A stretch of DNA of 64,000 nt from Acidimicrobiales bacterium (GTDB taxonomy: Bacteria > Actinomycetota > Acidimicrobiia > Acidimicrobiales > DATDAH01). Numbering within the stretch: the stretch's first letter is position 1; each line of letters starts with the position of its first letter. Under the pieces are notes generated by a model. The model saw nothing but the letters and a program-made list of their open reading frames with translations, made no database searches and had not been told where the DNA came from. A program made the translations under genes and the position numbers. The DNA lies in contig JAEUJM010000015.1 in the NCBI GenBank assembly GCA_016794585.1, positions 124,001 to 188,000 on the forward strand, written 5' to 3'. Of the stretch, positions 53,387 through 64,000 are shown one piece after another.

Positions 53387-53615
53387 GGACCCTCCTCAGG
53401 GCTGTCGGATGCGCGCAACCTAGGAAGGCCCGGTGACCGCCGACCCTGCGTGCGGTGGCCGCCCGGCGACGCTGCGGTGAACGTCTGCACGCTCGTCGCA
53501 GGTCGGCGACCGGCCCGCGGCTCACGCCCGGCCGAACCCGCCGCGAGGTCCCGACCGGCAGTCCGAGCCCACGGCCGAGTTGCCGGGGGCCGGGCGCGGG
53601 GGCGAGGCTGCCGAC

Positions 53616-54257
53616 GTGGGCGACGAGCGAGTGGTCGAGGCGGTGCTGTTCGACTTCACCGGGGTGCTGACGGGGTCGCCGTGGGCGGCCATCGGGGGCA
53701 TCGGGGACAAGGACGGGCTCAGTCACGACGAGGTGCTCGAGTTCATGCTCGGCCCCTACGACCGGGACACCGACCACCCGATGCACCAGCTCGAGCGTGG
53801 CGAGATCGAGCTGATGGCCTACGTCGCCGACGTGCAGGCCCGGGCCGACGCCGCTGGTCTCGCCCTCGACTTCGACCGGCTGCGCACGCTGATGGCCGAT
53901 CTGCCGGTGTACGACCAGATCGTCGACCGCATCCGGGCCTTGCGAGCGGCCGGCTACCGAACCGCCCTCATCACCAACAACATCCGTGAGGCCGGCGAGC
54001 AGTGGCGTGCCAAGGTGCCGCTCGACGAGCTCTTCGATGTGGTGATCGACTCGTCCGCGGTCGGCCTGCGCAAGCCCAACCCCGCCATCTTCCACCTCGC
54101 CCTCGAGCAGCTCGGCGGGGTCGACCCCGCCCGCGCCGTCTTCCTCGACGACCACCCGGGCAACGTCGCCGGGGCGCAGGCCGCCGGCCTCCAGGCCCTC
54201 CTCGTCGACGACCCCGACGAGGCCCTCGCCGACCTCGACGCGCTGCTGGGGACCTGA
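53616..54257 (+). CDS. HAD-superfamily hydrolase
   Basis: The product has 213 residues from the GTG at 53616; an upstream in-frame ATG at 53580 would add a Gly-rich extension that looks non-coding. Motif I is 'AVLFDFTGVLTGSPWAAIGG' (nucleophile Asp then Thr in place of the usual second Asp), motif II is 'YRTALITNNIREAGEQW' (Thr), motif III is 'GLRKPNPAIFHLALEQLGG' (Lys) and motif IV is 'AVFLDDHPGNVAGAQAAGLQ' (Asp-Asp). The second motif I Asp being Thr places it in the 'DFxG' subgroup that includes the N-terminal domain of soluble epoxide hydrolase. The cap segment ('LEFMLGPYDRDTDHPMHQLE') fits. A phosphatase role is likely, substrate unknown. Confidence 0.85.
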   Translation: MGDERVVEAVLFDFTGVLTGSPWAAIGGIGDKDGLSHDEVLEFMLGPYDRDTDHPMHQLERGEIELMAYVADVQARADAAGLALDFDRLRTLMADLPVYDQIVDRIRALRAAGYRTALITNNIREAGEQWRAKVPLDELFDVVIDSSAVGLRKPNPAIFHLALEQLGGVDPARAVFLDDHPGNVAGAQAAGLQALLVDDPDEALADLDALLGT

Positions 54258-54356: not shown

Positions 54357-54372
54357 TTGACCGCCCGGTCAA
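54357..54372. promoter_or_regulatory. Palindromic operator upstream of the ferritin-like operon
   Basis: TTGACCG-CC-CGGTCAA is a perfect 7-bp-arm inverted repeat 62 bases before the GTG at 54435. It is of the TTGACCGnnCGGTCAA kind bound by several actinobacterial TetR regulators. A TAAGCT at 54394-54399 could be the -10 box. The regulator is not adjacent. Confidence 0.5.
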
Positions 54373-54434
54373 CAAGGTCCGACGCCGACCCCCTAAGCTG
54401 CGGGGAGATCGTTTCGCGCACGTCAGGGGGACGA

Positions 54435-55109
54435 GTGGCAGATCCGAAGCGGCCCCGGGCCGCGTTCACGCCGTGGGACCGCCGGGAGCTCCCGGGCGCC
54501 TTCACGGTCGAGGAGAGCGCCAAGCGCGTCGGCCACTACAAGTGGATCGAGATGCGCACGTTCGAGGTGCTGGGCGGCTGGGTCGCCACGGTGCCCGAGC
54601 TCGACGTGAAGCTCCGCCTCGGCACCCACACCTACCACCACGCCTGGCACGCCGAGCTCTGGCACAAGCGTCTGCCCGAGCTGCGGGAGATGAACCAGGA
54701 GCGCCTCAACGTGCCGCCCAACGACGAGCTCGTGGCCTTCGTGGACGCCATGACCGAGCCCGAGGCCCCCGAGCTGACCATCGAGAAGCTGGTGGGCGTC
54801 TACCGGGTGCTCATCCCCCACAAGATCGCGGCCTACACGTACCACCTCAACAACACGAGCACGATCACCGACGCGCCGACCGTTCGTTCGCTGAAGTTCG
54901 CCCTCGCCGACGAGTTCGAGGACTGGCGTGACGGCGAGATGCTCATCCAGTCGCTCATCGAGACCCCCGAGGAAGTGCAGCGGGCGGCCGATCGCCAGGC
55001 CGAGCTCGAGAAGCTGCTGCTGGCCGCCGGCGGCATCGCCGGGCCCGGCTCCATCGGGACCCCCGTCCTGGCCCCCATCGAGAACGAAAGCGAGCAGGTG
55101 CCCTCATGA
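54435..55109 (+). CDS. Ferritin-like protein of unknown function (first gene of a three-gene operon)
   Basis: The product has 224 residues from the GTG at 54435. The chain looks like a four-helix bundle: 'HYKWIEMRTFEVLGGWVATV' (Glu39, Glu44), 'HTYHHAWHAELWHKRLPELR' (His65, 68, 69, 72 and Glu74), 'VGVYRVLIPHKIAAYTYHLN' (His129, His137) and 'KFALADEFEDWRDGEMLIQS' (Asp/Glu cluster 159-168). The His and Glu content suits a metal site, although it lacks the canonical ExxH pairs. The C-terminal 40 residues are probably disordered. It overlaps the next gene by four bases (ATGA), so the two are co-translated and the proteins may form a complex. I do not recognise a named family. Confidence 0.7.
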   Translation: MADPKRPRAAFTPWDRRELPGAFTVEESAKRVGHYKWIEMRTFEVLGGWVATVPELDVKLRLGTHTYHHAWHAELWHKRLPELREMNQERLNVPPNDELVAFVDAMTEPEAPELTIEKLVGVYRVLIPHKIAAYTYHLNNTSTITDAPTVRSLKFALADEFEDWRDGEMLIQSLIETPEEVQRAADRQAELEKLLLAAGGIAGPGSIGTPVLAPIENESEQVPS

Positions 55110-55942
55110 GGAAGACACTCCCCGTCGAGGACCTGGCCCGCGACGAGCGCTTCGTCCGCGTGCCCCTCACGGATCGCATCAACGACCCGCGCTCCATCAA
55201 GAACACGGCCATGCGCACCCAGGCCAAGCTCACCCCCAAGCGCCCCGACGCGTCGGACGCGGCCCGGTCGCTGATGCACGGCATCTTCGTGGGCGAGATC
55301 CAGGCCCTCGAGGGCGCCGGCCGCACGTGCTGGGACTTCGAGACCGGCGACGGCCGGGACGAGGCGCCGTTCGCCCTCAAGCTGGACATGGCTCGTCAGT
55401 GCTGGGACGAGGCCCGTCACTGCGAGATCTCGGTGAAGCTCAGCGACTGGATGGGCACCGAGATCGGCGAGTTCTCGGAGGGCACCTTCCTCTACGAGGC
55501 GGCCTGCAACCCCGACCCGGTCCTGCGCCTCACCGGCGTGAACCGGGCCCTCGAGGGCCTCGCCATCGACGTGTTCAACACCATGCGCGACTTCGGCGAC
55601 GCCGCCGGCGACCCCGTCCTCGAGTTCTGCGAGGACTGGATGCTCGCCGACGAGGTCACCCACGTGAAGATGGGATCCGACTGGCTGCGCCGCCTGACCG
55701 CCGACGACCCCGAGCGGCGCAAGAACGCGCTCGAGTTCCAGCGTGTGGTGGACAAGTTGTTCTCCCTCGGTGGCTTCCGGGGCGAGGACGACGAGAGCCC
55801 GGTCAAGCTGGCCCGGCGCTTCCGCGAGCTCGCCGGCTTCGAGGACGCCGAGATCGACGAGATCGCCGAAGACGCCCACGAGGCCCTGCGCGAGGCCCAG
55901 GCGCGCACCGAGGCGCTCGCGGCCGACGTCGCCGCGGGCTGA
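55106..55942 (+). CDS. DUF455-like ferritin-fold di-iron protein (second gene of the operon)
   Basis: The product has 278 residues. It carries the complete carboxylate-bridged di-iron signature spread over four helices: Glu64 ('HGIFVGEIQALEGAGR'), Glu102-x-x-His105 ('ARQCWDEARHCEISVKLSD'), Glu150 ('GVNRALEGLAIDVFNTMRD') and Glu183-x-x-His186 ('DWMLADEVTHVKMGSDWLRR'). Order and spacing match ferritin-like oxygenases, and the pattern recalls DUF455 proteins. The C-terminal part ('ELAGFEDAEIDEIAEDAHEA') is acidic and helical. An O2-activating role is likely; the substrate is not known. It is the likely catalytic subunit, encoded with the ferritin-like protein before it (four-base overlap) and followed 43 bases later by a third gene. 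Confidence 0.8.
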   Translation: MRKTLPVEDLARDERFVRVPLTDRINDPRSIKNTAMRTQAKLTPKRPDASDAARSLMHGIFVGEIQALEGAGRTCWDFETGDGRDEAPFALKLDMARQCWDEARHCEISVKLSDWMGTEIGEFSEGTFLYEAACNPDPVLRLTGVNRALEGLAIDVFNTMRDFGDAAGDPVLEFCEDWMLADEVTHVKMGSDWLRRLTADDPERRKNALEFQRVVDKLFSLGGFRGEDDESPVKLARRFRELAGFEDAEIDEIAEDAHEALREAQARTEALAADVAAG

Positions 55943-55985
55943 GCCCCCGCCGACCGCCGACCGCCGACACCGGAACCCCCCCCCC

Positions 55986-56549
55986 ATGCCCGTCATCGTC
56001 ACGCCCGACACCTTCTCCCTGGTCGGCTTCGACCGCGACGAGATCGCGGCCATCGCCGAGGACCTGCTCCCCAAGGTGGGCATCGACGCCGACGCCGACG
56101 TGCACCTCGACGTCAACGAGGGGTCGCCCCTCGGCTGGGCCGTCGTCACCTCGCTCGACCCCGTCACCCTGAACATCGAGAGCGGGGCCCTCGAGGATCC
56201 CAAGCGGCCCCGCCAGCTCTCGCCAGCCGGCGCCCAGAACGTGATCGGACGTCTGCTCCTCCAGGCGTCGGACCGCCTCGATCCGGCCTTCGGGGCGCCA
56301 CCGCTGGACGAGCCCCTCGACCCAGCATTGGCCAACGCCTGGGAGACCTACAGCGCCGGCCGCCTCGACCAGCTCGGCTACCGCTACGCCGACCAGCGCC
56401 AGCGCCGCCTGTACCACTTCCGCAACCGCCACGGCTTCACCGACCGGGCCGACGCCGTGTTCGAGCGTCTCTGGTCCGGCGACGGCCTCACCTTCGCCGA
56501 CCTTCGGGCCCTCTCCGACGAGGCCCTCGGCACCGCCAACCAGCCCTGA
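55986..56549 (+). CDS. Hypothetical protein (third gene of the ferritin-like operon)
   Basis: The product has 187 residues from an ATG directly after a run of C; three GCCGACC-type 7-base repeats lie in the gap before it. I do not recognise the family. It opens with 'VIVTPDTFSLVGFDRDEIAA', continues with an acidic stretch ('GIDADADVHLDVNEGSPLGW', 'SLDPVTLNIESGALEDP') and ends in helices ('GRLDQLGYRYADQRQRRLYH', 'DGLTFADLRALSDEALGTAN'). It lacks a signal peptide or membrane segment. Position in the operon suggests a partner, maturation factor or regulator of the di-iron protein. No catalytic motif is visible. Confidence 0.7.
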   Translation: MPVIVTPDTFSLVGFDRDEIAAIAEDLLPKVGIDADADVHLDVNEGSPLGWAVVTSLDPVTLNIESGALEDPKRPRQLSPAGAQNVIGRLLLQASDRLDPAFGAPPLDEPLDPALANAWETYSAGRLDQLGYRYADQRQRRLYHFRNRHGFTDRADAVFERLWSGDGLTFADLRALSDEALGTANQP

Positions 56550-56668: not shown

Positions 56669-59600
56669 GTGCGGAGCAGGACGCGGGGTGGGCGAGCGTG
56701 GGCCTCCGGGGCGTCCCTCGCCGTGGTGGGCGTAGCGCTCGCGACGGCCGCCGCCCCCGGCAGTGCCCTCCCGGTGGGTCCGACACCGACCCCGACGGCG
56801 CCGGCCCCGTCGACGACGACCCTGCCGCCCTCGGAGGCCGACCGCACGCCCGGGGCGCCCCCGGGCCTCGTCCCGCCCGAACCCCAGGTGCACTACCTCC
56901 CGTACCGAGCGGACCAGCTCTGGACGATCCTCTCGAGCGAGGAGTCCGGTGTGCCGTCGCAGCCCATCCGCCTGATCGCCGCGGCCGCCGCACCCCGGTC
57001 CGGGACCCGCGTGGCCGTCGACCACTGGGAGGACGGCTACGACGTCGATCCCCTCGGGGCGCCGGGTCCGACCACCGAGGTCACGACCTTGGGCGCGGGC
57101 GGCGTCCTCGACCTCTCGGACACCGTCGACCTGGGCCTCATCGGTTCGCTCGATCCGGTGGGGGCCGGGCGGCCGTACCACGACGGCGGGGACAAGGTCG
57201 TGTCGTCACAGCCCGTCTCGGTGACCGCCGGCGGGTGGCCGGCCACCACCGGCGCGGTGCACGGCGGGTCCAGCGCGGTGCCCGACGTGGCTCACCAGGG
57301 AACCTCGTTCACCCTCCCGGTCGGGGAGGACGCCCCGTTCCCTTCGGGCACGCCCACCGCGTCGCCGTTCGAGTACACCGGCTTGGTGGTGGTGGCGACG
57401 CAGGACGCCACCACGGTCACGGTCGCGGGTGGCCCGGCCGTCACACTGGACGAGGGCGAGGCCCACCTCGTCGACGGTGGCCTGCACCTCGGTGACACCG
57501 TGATCACCAACCGACCCGTGGCGGTGTACCTCGCGGCGGGCGACGTCGACGCCGGCTACGAAGGGCGGCTGTTCGACCTCGCGCCGACCACCTCGTGGTC
57601 CGACCGCTACGTCACCCCCGTCACGTCCACCAACAACTCCAACGAGGTGGTGCGGGCGTTCCTCTACAACCCGTTGGGCAGCGCCCTGACGGTCACTGTC
57701 GAGCGGTCGAACGCCACCACCAGCACCGTGAGCATCCCGGCCCACGGCCAGAGCTCGTTCCTGCTGTCCAGCGATGTCGGCGCCCGCTTCTCCGCACCTG
57801 GCCGGCCCTTCACCGGCCTCCTCGTCATCACGACCCCCGAGGTGGCCAACGACTCGAGCGCCGCCTACAACTGGGGCGTCCCCCTCGTGCCCGAGGACGA
57901 GCTCACGTCGAGCGTGATCGTCCCCTCCGGCCCGGGGTCCGCCAACGGCACCGCCAACTACAACCCCGTGTGGTTCGCGGCGGCAGCGACCACGACCGTC
58001 TACGTGGACCGCGACGGGGACCCGAGCACCGGTGGGTCGGTCGCGCCGGGGGGCCGCCGCTACGACTTCTCCTGCCCGGCGACGGCGCTGGTGCCCCGGG
58101 TGGTGGCGGACGGGGGCGCGCCCGTCTGTTCCACGCCGAGCGCCTCCACGGGGACCAAGGGCACCGGCGACGCCGACATGACCGGCGCCCAGCTGTTCAC
58201 CGTCGACGGCACCCGCCTCGTCGCCGCCTGGGGTCAGGTGCCCGGGCTCAACGCGCAGAACCCGGCGCTCGACCTCGGGGCCGCCCTGGCGCCGGTGCCC
58301 GAGCCGACCCCGACGGTGTCGGTGGAGAAGACGGTGTACCGCGGCCACGACAGCGGCGCCGGCTGCGACGACGGAGGCGAGGTCGTCGTCGGCGTCAGCG
58401 GGGACCAGGTCACCTTCTGCTTCCTCGTCACCAACACCGGCGAGGTGGCGGTCGGGCCGGTGTCGGTCGCCGATCCCGACCTCGGGGTGGACGAGGCGGA
58501 CCTCGATCTCCCGCTGGCCGGTGACCTCGCCCGCCTCGAGCCGGGCGACTCCGTCGGCCTCTCCTACGAGGCCACGGTCGGCGGCGACGTGGTCAACACC
58601 GTCTACGTGACGGCGCCGGCCCTGTCGCCCACCGGACCGCCGCTCCCCGTCGCCGAGGCCGAGGCGAGCGACTCGGCCGTGGTCGACGAGGTCGCACCCG
58701 ACCTGTGGCTGACGACCGAGGTGTACGCCGGCCACGACGGGGGAGCGACCTGCGGGGTCGGGGGACCCTCGCTCACCACCGTGGTCGACGCCCCCGTGAC
58801 CTGGTGCTTCCACGTCACCAATGCCGGCGACACCCGGCTCGCGGACGTGACCCTGGACGACCCGGCACTGGGCGTCACCGAGGCCGACCTCGTCGCCCTC
58901 TCCGGCAGCCTCGACGGGCTGGATCCGGGGGAGACCACAACCCTCTACCTCGAGTCGAGGGTCACGGGTGCTGTGGTGAGCAGCACCACCGCGCGGGCCG
59001 TACCCGCCGATCCCGTGGGCGAGCCCCTGCCGGGCCTCGACCCGGTGGAGGCACAGGCATCGGCGTCGGTGAGCGTCGTGGGCCCCGCCCTCACCCTGCT
59101 CACCGAGGCCCTCGATCCCTTCACCGGCAGCAATCTCGATGCCGACGACGTGGTGGGCAGCCCCGGGACGAACGATGGGGTGCCGGTGGTGCTGGCGGTG
59201 GGCGCGACCACGACGGCCCGCTTCACCGTGGCCAACGCGGGCGACGTGGACATCAGTGAAGTAGAGGTCGAGGGTTCGGGGTGCGATGCGCCGCCGGCAC
59301 TGGTGGCGGGCGATGTGGGCGTGCCGGGTGTGCTCGAGGTCGGAGAGGTGTGGGAGCTCACGTGCACGGTCACCGTCGGCGCCCAGGGCCTCGTGATCGA
59401 CGGCGTGGCCCGGGGCGTCACCGCCTTCGGGCCGGTGCCGGGCTCGGAGGTGCACGAGACCGCCCTGCTCCAGGTGGCCGCCGTGGGCGTGCAGGTGCAG
59501 GTGCGCCACCCAGGGTCGGGGGACTACGTCGACACGGCGGTGGTCCCACCACGGGAGACCGCGAGCTTCCGCATCGTGGTCGCCAACACCGGCGAGGCCG

Positions 59601-60112
59601 CGCTCGGACAGGTCGCCGTCCACTCGGACACCGTGCCGGCGTGCGACCGCGTCCTCCCCGGCGTGCTGCCAGCGGGCGCGACCAGCCCGCCGATCGATTG
59701 CGTGAGCCCGCCCCTGGACAGCGACATCGTCAACGAGGTGGCGGTCTCGGCCTCCCCGGTGGGCGCCGGGGGCGAGGCGGTGGCGGAGCCCGTGCGAGCG
59801 AGCGCCACGGCGTCGGCCACCGTCGACAGCTCCACCACCACCACCAGCACGACGACCAGCACGACCACGACCAGCACGACCACGACCAGCACGACCTCCA
59901 GCACCTCGACGACGACGACGCCGGGGCCGACGACGTCGGTGACCCCGGCGCCGCCGGCGGTGGGGGCCGACGGCGCGGCCGCCGGAGACGGCCCGGGCGG
60001 CGGGCTGCTCGAGCGCCTGCCGGGCACCGGTGCCGGTCGCGTGGCCCCGCTCCTGGGGGCCGCGGCGCTGGCCATCGCCGCCGGTCTCGCCCTGCAGCGC
60101 CGCCTGCGCTGA
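56669..60112 (+). CDS. LPxTG-anchored surface protein with IgGFc-binding-like N-domain and DUF11-like repeats
   Basis: The product has 1,147 residues from a GTG with a GGGGAG site. After a signal peptide ('ASLAVVGVALATAAAPGSA') and a Thr/Pro spacer, residues about 70-530 match the IgGFc-binding/'PF17517-like' pattern ('DQLWTILSSEESGVPSQPIR', 'TRVAVDHWEDGYDVDPLGAP', 'PFEYTGLVVVATQDATTVTV', 'VITNRPVAVYLAAGDVDAGY'). Two DUF11-like modules follow, starting 390 bases apart at 'EKTVYRGHDSGAGC' and 'TEVYAGHDGGATC'. Further beta-sandwich domains and a Thr/Ser-rich stretch (59831-59920) come next. The end is a full sorting signal: LPGTG, a hydrophobic helix 'RVAPLLGAAALAIAAGLAL' and 'QRRLR'. A sortase should link it to the wall. 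No sortase gene is in this window. The gene at 60268 is a paralog. Confidence 0.88.
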   Translation: MRSRTRGGRAWASGASLAVVGVALATAAAPGSALPVGPTPTPTAPAPSTTTLPPSEADRTPGAPPGLVPPEPQVHYLPYRADQLWTILSSEESGVPSQPIRLIAAAAAPRSGTRVAVDHWEDGYDVDPLGAPGPTTEVTTLGAGGVLDLSDTVDLGLIGSLDPVGAGRPYHDGGDKVVSSQPVSVTAGGWPATTGAVHGGSSAVPDVAHQGTSFTLPVGEDAPFPSGTPTASPFEYTGLVVVATQDATTVTVAGGPAVTLDEGEAHLVDGGLHLGDTVITNRPVAVYLAAGDVDAGYEGRLFDLAPTTSWSDRYVTPVTSTNNSNEVVRAFLYNPLGSALTVTVERSNATTSTVSIPAHGQSSFLLSSDVGARFSAPGRPFTGLLVITTPEVANDSSAAYNWGVPLVPEDELTSSVIVPSGPGSANGTANYNPVWFAAAATTTVYVDRDGDPSTGGSVAPGGRRYDFSCPATALVPRVVADGGAPVCSTPSASTGTKGTGDADMTGAQLFTVDGTRLVAAWGQVPGLNAQNPALDLGAALAPVPEPTPTVSVEKTVYRGHDSGAGCDDGGEVVVGVSGDQVTFCFLVTNTGEVAVGPVSVADPDLGVDEADLDLPLAGDLARLEPGDSVGLSYEATVGGDVVNTVYVTAPALSPTGPPLPVAEAEASDSAVVDEVAPDLWLTTEVYAGHDGGATCGVGGPSLTTVVDAPVTWCFHVTNAGDTRLADVTLDDPALGVTEADLVALSGSLDGLDPGETTTLYLESRVTGAVVSSTTARAVPADPVGEPLPGLDPVEAQASASVSVVGPALTLLTEALDPFTGSNLDADDVVGSPGTNDGVPVVLAVGATTTARFTVANAGDVDISEVEVEGSGCDAPPALVAGDVGVPGVLEVGEVWELTCTVTVGAQGLVIDGVARGVTAFGPVPGSEVHETALLQVAAVGVQVQVRHPGSGDYVDTAVVPPRETASFRIVVANTGEAALGQVAVHSDTVPACDRVLPGVLPAGATSPPIDCVSPPLDSDIVNEVAVSASPVGAGGEAVAEPVRASATASATVDSSTTTTSTTTSTTTTSTTTTSTTSSTSTTTTPGPTTSVTPAPPAVGADGAAAGDGPGGGLLERLPGTGAGRVAPLLGAAALAIAAGLALQRRLR
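59831..59921 (+). repeat. Thr/Ser low-complexity repeat inside the surface-protein gene
   Basis: The DNA is a run of ACC/ACG triplets broken by AGC, with a recurring AGCACGACCACGACC unit. It codes a Thr/Ser spacer between the last folded domain and the sorting signal. Such runs often change length by slippage and act as flexible, possibly glycosylated stalks. Confidence 0.75.
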
Positions 60113-60190: not shown

Positions 60191-60267
60191 GGTTCCTCTG
60201 CGTCCCCCTCATCTCGGGGGGTGCCGTACCGAAAGATGCGGGACCTCTCACTCAGGAGCATTTGGCG

Positions 60268-63200
60268 ATGCGCGTCATGGCGGAGCAGTTCGACAAGTTC
60301 AAGGGCAAGGCGGCGGGCGGCCGCCGGCGGCCCTTCTCGTGGGGCCACGTGCTGGCACCGTTGGCGGTGGTGGCCGTGCTGGGGGCGGCCCTGGTCACGT
60401 CGCCGACGCGTGCGCCCTGGACGGCGCCGCCGGAGCTGACGGCGGCAGGGGAGCAGTTGCACTACCTCCCTCTCGACGCCCAGCAGTTCTACGACACGCT
60501 GCTCAGCGAGGAGCCGGGCCTGCCCGCACAGGACGTGCGCCTCATCAGCTCGATCATCTCGTCCCGCGCGGGCAACACCGTGGCCATCGACCACTGGGAG
60601 GACGGCTACGACGCCGACCCGATCGGCAGCCCGAGCTCGACGACCGAGGTCTCGACCATGGGTGAAGGGGAGGTCCAGGTCCTCGACAACGTCATCGTGC
60701 TCGCCAACATCGGTGACATCACCCCGGGTGGGTCGGGTCAGCCCTACTACGACGGCCGGGACAAGATCGTCTCGACCTCGCCCACCGTCGTGACCATGGG
60801 CGGGTGGGGGAACTCGACCGGCTCGGTGCACGCCGGCGCGTCGGCGGTGCCCGAGGTGTCCCGCTACGGCTACGCCTTCGAGAGCCCCGTCGGCGAGAAC
60901 ACGCCGTTCCCTTCGGGCAGCCCCACGGCCTCGCCGTGGGAGTACACCGGCCTGATCGTCGCTGCGGCGCAAGACGGCACCACCGTGAACATCACGGGGG
61001 AAGCACCGGTCAGCCTGGACGAGGGTGACCTGCACCTCGTCGACGGCGGCATTAACGTGGGCGACGACATCACGGCCGACAAGCCCATCGCCGTGTACCT
61101 CGCCACCGGCGACGTCGGCGCCGGCTTCGAGGGGCGGCTCTACGAGCTCACCCCGACCGAGCGCTGGACCGACACCTACTTCTCGCCGGTGACCTCGACC
61201 AACAACAGCGCCCGGGTCACCCGCGCGTTCCTCTACAACCCCGGCAGCTCGGCCATCACGGTGAACGTGACCCGCTCGAACGCGACGAGCACCACCGTCA
61301 CGGTTCCCGCCAACGGGCAGGCCAGCTACCTCTTCCCGTCCGACGTCGGCGCGAAGTTCGAGAGCAGCGGCAACCCCTTCTACGCCCTCCAGGTGATCAC
61401 CACGCCGGAGTCCGGCAACGACAGCAGCTCGTCGTGGAACTGGGGCTTCTCGCTCATCCCGCAGGCCTACCTGACGCCGATGGTCGTCCTCGGGTACGCC
61501 ACCGGCTCGTCCAACCTCACGGAGAACGACAGCGCGGTGTGGGTCGCTCCCGCCGCCGCAACCACGATCTACGTCGACCGCGACGGCGACACGTCCACCG
61601 GTCCGCTCACCGACGCGAACGGGAACAAGTACGACTTCAGCTGCGCGATGAACGCCCTGCGGCCGCGCCTGATCGCCGACGACGGCACCACCACCTGCCA
61701 CGTCCCCAGCGCCTTCACCAACGCAGTTGGCAGTGGCGACGCCGACATGACGGGTGCGCGCATCTACACCCTCGACGGCACGTCGCTGGCGGCGGCCTGG
61801 GGACAGGTCCCGGGGCTGAACGCACAGAACCCCGCCATCGACATGGGCACCACCGTGCTGCCCTTCCCGACCGTCGACCTCGACAAGACGTCGGTCATCG
61901 TGGACGACGACGGCGACGGGCTCGCCGACCCCGGCGAGACCATCCGCTACACCATCTCGGCCACCAACGCCGGCATCACCCCCGTCGACAACCTGCTGTT
62001 GAGCGACGAGGTGCCCGAGCACACCACCTACGTGCTGGGCACCACCGTCCACAACGGCAGCCCCATCCCCGACGATGGCTCGGGCACGCCCTTCCCCCTC
62101 GACGGCGCCGGGGTCACGCTCCCGCCGGCACTGTCGATCGGGCAGACCCGCACCGTGACCTTCGACGTGAAGGTGGACAAGCCGCTCGACCCGACCGTCA
62201 CCCAGATCGTCAACGAGGCCACCCTCGCCACGAGCTACGGCACGTACACCGACGTCGACGTGAAGCCCGTCTCGCCACCCGAGCCCGGCATCGCGCTCGC
62301 GAAGACCGTCTACCCCGGCCATGACGGCGGGGCGTCCTGCCAGGGCGCCGACCTCGTCGCCGGCACCAACGGCGACGCCGTCACCTACTGCTTCACCGTC
62401 ACCAACGACGGCGACACCTACCTCGGCACCGTGACCCTCGACGACCCGGACCTCGGCATCGACGACACGGACATGACCCTCGTCTCGGGCGACCCGTCGC
62501 TGGTCGCCGCCGGCGACACCGTGACGTGGGCCTACGAGACCACCATCGACGGTGACCTCACCAACACGGCGACCGCCACGGCGGCGCCCGTGGACGACCA
62601 GAACGTGCCCCTGCCCGACACCGGGCCCATCACCGACGACGACTCGGCCCAGGTGGACGAGGTGGCCCCCGCCCTCTCGATCGCCAAGACGATCTACCGC
62701 GGCCACGACGACGGCGCACTGTGCCAGGGCCAGGAGACCGCGACGGGCGTGAACGGTGACCCCGTGACCTACTGCTTCGCGGTCACCAACACCGGGGACA
62801 CGACCCTCGCCCCCGTCACCGTCAGCGACCCCGACCTCGGCATCGACCAGACCGACATGGGCGTCGTCTCCGGCGACCTCGCCCAGCTCGACCCGGGCGA
62901 CACCGCGATCCTCTACCACGAGACCACCCTCGACGGTGACCTCACCAACACCGCCACCGGCACCGGCACCCCGTCCGACCCGAACGGCGACCCCCTGCCC
63001 GGCGTCGACCCGGTCGACGACGACGACACCGCCGACGCCGACGAGGTGCACCCCGCCCTGTCGGTGGCGAAGACCGTGTACCAGGGCCACGACGCCGGGG
63101 CCTCCTGCCAGGGCAGCAACCTGGTCAACGCCCTGAACGGCGAGGACCTGACCTGGTGCTTCGTGGTCACCAACGACGGTGACACCGAGCTCGCCCCGAT

Positions 63201-64000
63201 CACCCTCGACGACGGCGACCTCGGCATCGACGAGACCGATATGACCGTCCTGTCCGGCACCCTGGCGACGCTCGCCCCCGGCGACTCGGTCGCCCTCTAC
63301 TACCAGGGCGCCGCCGCCGGCGACCTCACCAACACGGTCACCGCCACCGGCGTCCCCGCCGACGGCTCGAGCGACCCGCTGCCCGGGCTCACCCCGGTCA
63401 CCGACGAGGACGACGCTGCGGTCGACACCGTCGGCCCCGCCGTCACCATCCAGAAGACCGTCTACCGGGGCCACGACGCCGGTGCCGGCTGCGACGGCGT
63501 CGAGAACCTCTCGGGCCGCAACGGCGAAGAGGTCACCTGGTGCTTCCGGGTGACCAACAGCGGTGACACCGACCTGTCGCCGGTGACCCTCGTCGACGGC
63601 GACCTCGGCATCGACGAGAGCGACCTGACCGTCCTCTCGGGTGATCTCTCGAACCTGCCCGCCGGCGAGACCGCGGTCCTCTACCTCGAGGGCACGGTCG
63701 ACGGCGACCTGCACAACACCGCCGCCGTCACCGGCACCCCGGTCGACGGCAACGGCGACCCCCTCGTGGGCATCGACGACGTGACCGACGAGGACGACGC
63801 CACCATCGACGAGGTGGCCCCGGCCGTCTCGGTGGCCAAGACCGTCTACCGCGGCCACACCGCGGGCGCCGGCTGCCCCGGCGGCGAGCTGGTGAACGCC
63901 GCCAACGGCGGTGCGGTCACGTGGTGCTTCACCATCACCAACGACGGTGACACCCGCCTCGCCCCGGTCGAGCTGACCGACCTCGACCTCGGCATCGCCG
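60268..64000 (+). CDS. Surface protein with IgGFc-binding-like N-domain and 128-residue DUF11-like repeats, 3'-truncated by the window
   Basis: The ATG at 60268 follows AGGAG; 1,244 codons are seen before the window ends. A hydrophobic segment near residues 28-46 ('VLAPLAVVAVLGAALVTSPT') is the signal or anchor. Residues about 60-530 repeat the neighbour's domain ('TVAIDHWEDGYDADPIGSPS', 'SPWEYTGLIVAAAQDGTTVN', 'AAAWGQVPGLNAQNPAIDMG'), so the two genes arose by duplication. A 'DLDKTSVIVDDDGDGLADPG' DUF11 domain follows. From about residue 676 the protein is an array of 128-residue modules, each with 'KTVY.GHD.GA.C', 'TWCF.VTN.GDT.L.PVTL', 'DLGID..DMTVLSGDLA.L' and 'GDLTNTATATG.P.D'. The modules look like extracellular rods with one disulfide each. 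The C-terminal anchor is not seen. Confidence 0.88.
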   Translation, partial: MRVMAEQFDKFKGKAAGGRRRPFSWGHVLAPLAVVAVLGAALVTSPTRAPWTAPPELTAAGEQLHYLPLDAQQFYDTLLSEEPGLPAQDVRLISSIISSRAGNTVAIDHWEDGYDADPIGSPSSTTEVSTMGEGEVQVLDNVIVLANIGDITPGGSGQPYYDGRDKIVSTSPTVVTMGGWGNSTGSVHAGASAVPEVSRYGYAFESPVGENTPFPSGSPTASPWEYTGLIVAAAQDGTTVNITGEAPVSLDEGDLHLVDGGINVGDDITADKPIAVYLATGDVGAGFEGRLYELTPTERWTDTYFSPVTSTNNSARVTRAFLYNPGSSAITVNVTRSNATSTTVTVPANGQASYLFPSDVGAKFESSGNPFYALQVITTPESGNDSSSSWNWGFSLIPQAYLTPMVVLGYATGSSNLTENDSAVWVAPAAATTIYVDRDGDTSTGPLTDANGNKYDFSCAMNALRPRLIADDGTTTCHVPSAFTNAVGSGDADMTGARIYTLDGTSLAAAWGQVPGLNAQNPAIDMGTTVLPFPTVDLDKTSVIVDDDGDGLADPGETIRYTISATNAGITPVDNLLLSDEVPEHTTYVLGTTVHNGSPIPDDGSGTPFPLDGAGVTLPPALSIGQTRTVTFDVKVDKPLDPTVTQIVNEATLATSYGTYTDVDVKPVSPPEPGIALAKTVYPGHDGGASCQGADLVAGTNGDAVTYCFTVTNDGDTYLGTVTLDDPDLGIDDTDMTLVSGDPSLVAAGDTVTWAYETTIDGDLTNTATATAAPVDDQNVPLPDTGPITDDDSAQVDEVAPALSIAKTIYRGHDDGALCQGQETATGVNGDPVTYCFAVTNTGDTTLAPVTVSDPDLGIDQTDMGVVSGDLAQLDPGDTAILYHETTLDGDLTNTATGTGTPSDPNGDPLPGVDPVDDDDTADADEVHPALSVAKTVYQGHDAGASCQGSNLVNALNGEDLTWCFVVTNDGDTELAPITLDDGDLGIDETDMTVLSGTLATLAPGDSVALYYQGAAAGDLTNTVTATGVPADGSSDPLPGLTPVTDEDDAAVDTVGPAVTIQKTVYRGHDAGAGCDGVENLSGRNGEEVTWCFRVTNSGDTDLSPVTLVDGDLGIDESDLTVLSGDLSNLPAGETAVLYLEGTVDGDLHNTAAVTGTPVDGNGDPLVGIDDVTDEDDATIDEVAPAVSVAKTVYRGHTAGAGCPGGELVNAANGGAVTWCFTITNDGDTRLAPVELTDLDLGIA
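62302..64000 (+). repeat. In-gene tandem array with an exact 384-nt period
   Basis: The conserved 'AAG ACn nTC/GTG TAC' codon set (Lys-Thr-Val-Tyr) starts at 62302, 62686, 63070, 63454 and 63838, which is exactly 384 bases (128 codons) each time. Four complete units and the start of a fifth are in view, and the array continues past the right edge. There is no indel between units over 1.5 kb. Confidence 0.9.

Follow-up and report, generated by a model that had tools for sequence, protein, structure and literature searches.

Three neighbouring genes of an Acidimicrobiales bacterium, conserved as a cluster throughout an order of actinobacteria from soil and water, appear to encode a two-part, oxygen-using metal enzyme with a helper protein. 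Their operon appears to be regulated jointly with genes of fatty-acid breakdown. The locus was studied in a stretch of 64,000 nucleotides (hereafter the window), which belongs to a genome of 5.49 Mb in 51 contigs. Three intact genes follow each other on the forward strand. ORF1 (54435..55109, GTG start, 224 aa) encodes a ferritin-fold partner subunit with an altered metal site, ORF2 (55106..55942, 278 aa) a ferritin-like, putatively catalytic subunit of the DUF455 family (PF04305), and ORF3 (55986..56549, 187 aa) a candidate accessory protein, predicted to adopt a zincin-like fold without the HExxH motif. ORF1 and ORF2 overlap by 4 bases (ATGA), 43 bases separate ORF2 from ORF3, and a perfect inverted repeat (54357..54372) ends 62 bases before the GTG start of ORF1. 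The initial annotation, made from the window by itself, had given the coordinates, the overlap, the gap and the distance of the palindrome exactly.

Conservation of the gene unit

The coding bias is strong in all three genes (GC3 0.94-0.96, GC2 0.43-0.46). A longer version of ORF1, proposed by the ORF finder and starting at TTG 54357, was rejected: the homologues begin level with GTG 54435, and the TTG is therefore not the real start. Named relatives of ORF1 come nearly all from Acidimicrobiales/Acidimicrobiia or from unspecified actinobacterial MAGs.

In species-level genomes, ORF1, ORF2 and ORF3 are contiguous and in this order at 62 of 80 ORF1 loci. Nine other loci have ORF1 and ORF3 without ORF2, and a contig end lies close downstream in eight of the remaining nine. 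Four genomes with clusters of ORF1 and ORF3 only (G004, G016, G027 and G036) were searched whole, and their ORF2 copy is located elsewhere in the genome. Close homologues of ORF1 and ORF2 were then counted in 59 genomes of the order, one per family. Both genes are present in 22 genomes, ORF1 only in one, ORF2 only in none and neither in 36 (Fisher p = 2.6e-15, kinship still inflating such p-values). ORF2 and ORF3 occur together in 21 of these genomes, and the one ORF2 found without ORF3 is at a contig end. Gene neighbourhood and near-perfect co-occurrence in related genomes thus agree with the operon read from the window.

Some lineages depart from this arrangement. At one locus (L206, genome G431), ORF1 and ORF2 are adjacent in the reversed order, ORF2-ORF1. 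At others (L220, L222, L098), ORF1 persists without ORF2 and ORF3, and it may therefore also act alone. Divergent ORF1 homologues of this type (L220, L222, L219, L221) are found in the same conserved surroundings, frequently with NadE or GlnE on one side and a sigma factor on the other, which suggests that ORF1 was at the locus before its partners. A second, stand-alone ORF2 paralogue, with no ORF1, was observed at L089, L090, L092 and L093 (genomes G041, G027, G037 and G013). Its neighbours are variable and include genes for CoA-transferase III, Fe-alcohol dehydrogenase, PIG-L, ABM and glyoxalase proteins.

The wider neighbourhood of the operon consists of housekeeping genes (NadE, GlnE, glutamine synthetase, a sigma-70 factor and Tad-type secretion genes) and offers little functional hint. 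The exception is an ABM-domain gene (antibiotic biosynthesis monooxygenase, PF03992), located downstream of ORF3 on the opposite strand in many relatives (for example L088:10085-10531); none was found beside ORF3 in the window. In the window, a gene for a HAD-type hydrolase (53607-54257) lies directly upstream, and a related gene is close to the ORF1 cluster in L083. Downstream, two very large, mutually related proteins are encoded (56669-60112 and 60262-63999). The first of them is rich in Thr over one stretch, ends in a hydrophobic tail and resembles a surface protein.

Predicted folds and putative metal ligands of the three proteins

ORF2 is the only DUF455 protein encoded in its genome (62.8 bits against PF04305, E 4.7e-17, gathering cut-off 34.3). 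The full di-iron ligand set ascribed to it by the initial annotation proved correct, with no deviation in any of 86 sequences. It comprises E64, E102xxH105, E150 and E183xxH186, with codons between 55295 and 55663 on the forward strand (E64 55295, E102 55409, H105 55418, E150 55553, E183 55652, H186 55661). E69, D101, E107, E125, D155 and D182 are likewise invariant. ORF2 thus has the E / ExxH / E / ExxH pattern of carboxylate-bridged di-metal ferritin-like enzymes, and the model of a natural fusion, described below, contains a helical bundle with ferritin-type structural matches. A sequence search of the PDB with ORF2 returned no match. Our literature search found no experimentally known function for DUF455, and no paired DUF455 protein or fusion; O2 chemistry is therefore proposed by analogy.

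ORF1 is homologous to ORF2 and shares its fold, but its site is altered. The protein has no Pfam match even at E 10 and no NCBIfam match, and it is not a member of DUF455, its relation to ORF2 being remote and visible only at the profile level. Direct hhalign comparison of shallow profiles was weak (prob 6), whereas deeper profiles resolved the relation over the full length (prob 95.7, E 3.7e-9). The positions of ORF1 that match the ORF2 ligands are E39, H69xxH72, I127 and E160xxD163. Hence five of the six keep a possible metal ligand, two of them in changed form (E to H and H to D), and the helix-C glutamate is lost, being replaced by I127 (I, L, V or A across homologues). In 95 ORF1 sequences that carry the N-terminal tail described below, E39, E44, H65, H69, H72 and D159 are invariant, and position 163 is D or E. 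The initial annotation had described ORF1 as lacking ExxH pairs. One such string exists (E74-LW-H77) and is not strictly conserved; the description holds for the ligand positions, since E74-LW-H77 falls outside them in the ORF2 register. The accompanying proposal of a non-catalytic or structural partner is likely to be right, with the amendment that ORF1 is not ligand-free and retains an invariant E/H/H/D set.

The N-terminal tail of ORF1, PWDRRELPG (residues 13-21, 54471..54497, forward strand), is a putative docking segment. W14 and D15 are kept in 95 of 95 tailed sequences, and nine homologues have no tail. The tail is found in ORF1 proteins with an ORF2 partner and is missing from the divergent ORF1-only forms and from L053.

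In six genomes, ORF1 and ORF2 are fused into a single ORF of 391-452 aa (L195, L197, L204, L199, L208 and L095). Five of the hosts are outside the order and within the phylum, in three families; L095 is inside the order. The ORF1 half is N-terminal and the ORF2 half C-terminal, as in the operon. By profile comparison, the ORF1 profile aligns on the N half (prob 99.1, E 1.7e-18) and the ORF2 profile on the C half (prob 98.6). The C halves have E260, E293xxH296, E340 and E373xxH376 (L195 numbering) invariant in all six, and those that were scanned exceed the curated cut-off of DUF455 and show the E/ExxH/E/ExxH set; no such di-metal ligand set is present in the N halves. The N and C halves taken alone gave no profile match to each other. 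Six more candidates from tblastn extraction were rejected, their N part being, as judged from the sequences, an out-of-frame reading. The fusions establish computationally that the ORF1-ORF2 pairing is real. Together with the reversed order in L206, they also mean that the pairing is independent of one inherited gene order.

The L195 fusion was modelled (mean pLDDT 87.7, pTM 0.90) without use of a joint alignment with ORF2, in which the ORF2 sequences had landed on the N domain. The N domain matches the B chain of toluene 4-monooxygenase hydroxylase (Z 16.4, 2.9 A, 180 residues), the ferritin-like protein of unknown function 3ez0 (Z 16.6) and also aldehyde-deformylating oxygenases, and the C domain matches an aldehyde-deformylating oxygenase (Z 14.7, 175 residues); these values are somewhat higher than the Z of up to about 13 that, according to the tool's warning, is common among helical bundles. 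Long, unrelated helical proteins among the Foldseek rows were disregarded. Overall, synteny, co-occurrence, six fusions and a confident fusion model bear out the idea, put forward in the initial annotation, of a catalytic ferritin-like subunit in one operon with a second ferritin-like protein, here a homologue with an altered site, and a third product.

ORF3 has no match in Pfam or NCBIfam. Its AlphaFold2 model is confident (mean pLDDT 96.1, pTM 0.91), and the best 50 VIA matches are all zincin-type folds, nearly all of them metallopeptidases, with Z of 6.0-7.9, a range under 8 that may reflect merely a common arrangement. Foldseek gave no match at E below 0.001. The model aligns with zincin-fold metallopeptidases such as M1, selecase and YbeY-like proteins; it differs from them in that the HExxH zinc motif is found in 0 of 86 ORF3 homologues. 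ORF3 is best read as a putative zincin-like pseudo-enzyme. The earlier statement that it resembles nothing known is hence valid for sequence families and probably not for the predicted fold.

A probable shared operator and its regulon

The inverted repeat upstream of ORF1 (TTGACCGCCCGGTCAA, 54357..54372) consists of the arms TTGACCG and CGGTCAA around CC. It is perfect in 11 of 102 ORF1 upstream regions and present with at most two mismatches in 21 of 102, compared with 0.2% of shuffles. The 16-mer has 10 perfect copies in its own genome and 35 in ten related genomes, versus 0 for the reversed control. The palindrome noticed in the window is thus not a product of chance. The alternative that it is simply a -35 box was rejected, as there is no -10 element at the right distance from TTGACC, with TAnnnT lying 31 bases on. 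A literature search with the operator sequence produced no usable result.

The candidate regulator is a TetR-family gene of the same genome, unlinked to the operon (G000:C43, about 55529-56125). The operator lies 3-14 bp before this gene in five genomes (G000, G037, G027, G003 and G024), and TetR orthologues 58-78% identical are found in seven genomes besides G037, the own genome included. From these positions, the palindrome is likely the operator of an autoregulated TetR-family gene, whose product, encoded away from the operon, would also bind upstream of ORF1. FasR and Bacillus FadR are among the nearest named families of the TetR orthologue, and a search of the PDB matched it to KstR2 and a fatty acid metabolism regulator, among others. 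The regulator thus resembles TetR-family fatty-acid regulators in its nearest named relatives and in its acyl-CoA gene regulon. It differs from them in falling far below the family cut-offs and in its operator, TTGACCGNNCGGTCAA, which was not matched to a published one.

Seven acyl-CoA dehydrogenases are located at operator sites in the own genome and in relatives. Thiolases with a divergent FadD-type (fatty-acyl-CoA) ligase accompany the operator in the own genome (with one mismatch) and in G043. Sharing of the operator among ORF1, the TetR gene (in 5 genomes) and acyl-CoA genes places the operon in one regulon with them, and the presence of acyl-CoA dehydrogenases, a thiolase and a fatty-acyl-CoA ligase therefore suggests a lipid or acyl-CoA role. 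Other genes at operator sites encode alpha/beta hydrolases, thiolase-like proteins, luciferase-family flavoproteins, glycosyltransferases and a MoxR-type AAA/CoxE-VWA pair. With its glycosyltransferases, luciferase-family flavoproteins and AAA/VWA genes, the TetR regulon is most likely lipid-leaning, not purely lipid. About four-fifths of the ORF1 upstream regions are without the operator, so that lipid control is not universal.

The operator was also observed at a MoxR-type AAA gene in L232 (G000:C43:188600-195200), L280, L288 and L263; in the own genome, a CoxE-like VWA gene comes after it. Pairs of MoxR-type AAA and CoxE-like VWA proteins are known from metal-enzyme maturation, and the operator-linked pair may be a maturation system. 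Elsewhere in the own genome, a 449-aa protein with no Pfam match is encoded directly downstream of a perfect operator copy (L227:3355-4701).

The proposed enzyme and known systems

Our preferred reading, held with moderate confidence, is that the products of the operon form a heteromeric di-metal oxygenase or oxidase whose substrate is an acyl compound or a lipid, with ORF2 as the catalytic subunit, ORF1 as its altered partner and ORF3 as accessory protein. ORF2 would form a four-helix bundle whose carboxylate-bridged di-metal site, held by the E/ExxH/E/ExxH set, binds and reduces O2. ORF1 would pack against it in the manner of the fusion halves and shape or stabilise the active site. ORF3 would have an accessory role, probably in scaffolding, coupling or maturation. 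The palindrome would be bound by a TetR-family repressor that also controls the acyl-CoA dehydrogenases, the thiolase and the fatty-acyl-CoA ligase; because the repressor would be shared with these genes, the substrate is most likely an acyl-CoA, a free acyl chain or some other lipid. Electrons may come from a generic ferredoxin, or none may be needed. The operon encodes no reductase, ferredoxin or bridging subunit, and as no reductase is linked, the electron source is the main gap of the scheme. A bolder version, in which we place little confidence, gives ORF1 a non-canonical metal site of its own, built from E39, E44, H65, H69, H72 and D159 with the nearly invariant D163. The complex would then have unlike metal centres in its two homologous subunits, with a zinc-less zincin-fold protein to join or mature them, and would catalyse an undescribed O2-dependent acyl-CoA or lipid reaction in Acidimicrobiales.

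The fold matches also include bacterioferritin, Dps, mini-bacterioferritin, Mn catalase and rubrerythrin. ORF1-ORF2 could accordingly handle iron, peroxide or redox stress, as a rubrerythrin, ferritin or sensor-like pair and not a substrate oxygenase, the regulon link then reflecting oxidative stress from beta-oxidation. Peroxide is generally tied to acyl-CoA metabolism, and Mn-catalase-like chemistry would need no reductase. We nevertheless judge this reading unlikely: DUF455 is a distinct sequence family, the proteins have no rubredoxin domain, and a heteromeric pair that is fixed, can be fused and has one altered member is characteristic of oxygenases, not of ferritins.

The loci that depart from the three-gene order could also mean that ORF2 acts alone, ORF1 and ORF3 being a separate unit that is merely co-regulated. 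ORF1 and ORF3 are adjacent without ORF2 in nine of the 80 loci, ORF2 paralogues stand alone in other loci, and ORF1 is alone in some genomes. Against this, the six fusions in several families of the phylum, the near-perfect co-occurrence and the ORF1 tail, which tracks the presence of ORF2, make such a separation quite improbable.

A phenylacetyl-CoA-epoxidase-like enzyme or a true bacterial multicomponent monooxygenase, its reductase and coupling proteins being encoded at other loci, would share the principle of catalytic and altered ferritin-fold subunits and would fit the match of the ORF1-type domain to chain B of toluene 4-monooxygenase (Z 16.4), but it is very improbable, as PF05138 is missing from the whole genome, no PaaB, PaaE, Rieske or effector gene is present in the operon or among the scanned conserved neighbours, and helical-bundle Z values of this size can reflect the fold alone.

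Identity with phenylacetyl-CoA epoxidase itself was rejected. PF05138 (PaaA_PaaC) had no match in the own genome, controls being positive in 4 genomes; neither the PaaE reductase nor the PaaB bridging subunit is encoded in the operon or among its scanned conserved neighbours; and DUF455 is a different family. The two subunits of the PaaAC pair have one fold and 17% mutual identity (PMC4498308). The comparison with epoxidase layouts drawn in the initial annotation therefore survives for the pairing of catalytic and structural ferritin-fold subunits of low mutual identity, which works alike in PaaAC(BE), and finds no support in homology. The present pair also differs in that ORF1 keeps possible ligands.

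The hydroxylases of multicomponent monooxygenases (toluene 4-monooxygenase, sMMO) have alpha and metal-free beta subunits of one fold, and the superposition of the ORF1-type domain on the toluene 4-monooxygenase B chain over 180 residues is a likeness of fold alone. ORF1 and ORF2 are smaller, have no detectable sequence relation to these enzymes and no Pfam match to their families, and are not linked to effector, Rieske or reductase genes. Aldehyde-deformylating oxygenase superposes on both halves of the fusion model (Z 14.5-15.9) and CADD and R2lox on the N half, again by fold similarity only; these are single-bundle enzymes without an altered partner. ORF2 and the scanned fusion C halves are members of DUF455, whose Pfam model includes no ORF1-type partner, ORF3 or assigned function.

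If the preferred reading of a heteromeric di-metal enzyme holds, another catalytic-plus-altered ferritin-fold pair stands beside PaaAC and the multicomponent monooxygenases. In the ORF1/ORF2 pair, evolution between two genes and one can be followed. For the orphan DUF455 family, the partner found here is nearly obligate, natural fusions establish the pairing, and an accessory protein comes with it, as does a regulon by which the class of substrate is narrowed; the family thereby becomes a testable enzyme.
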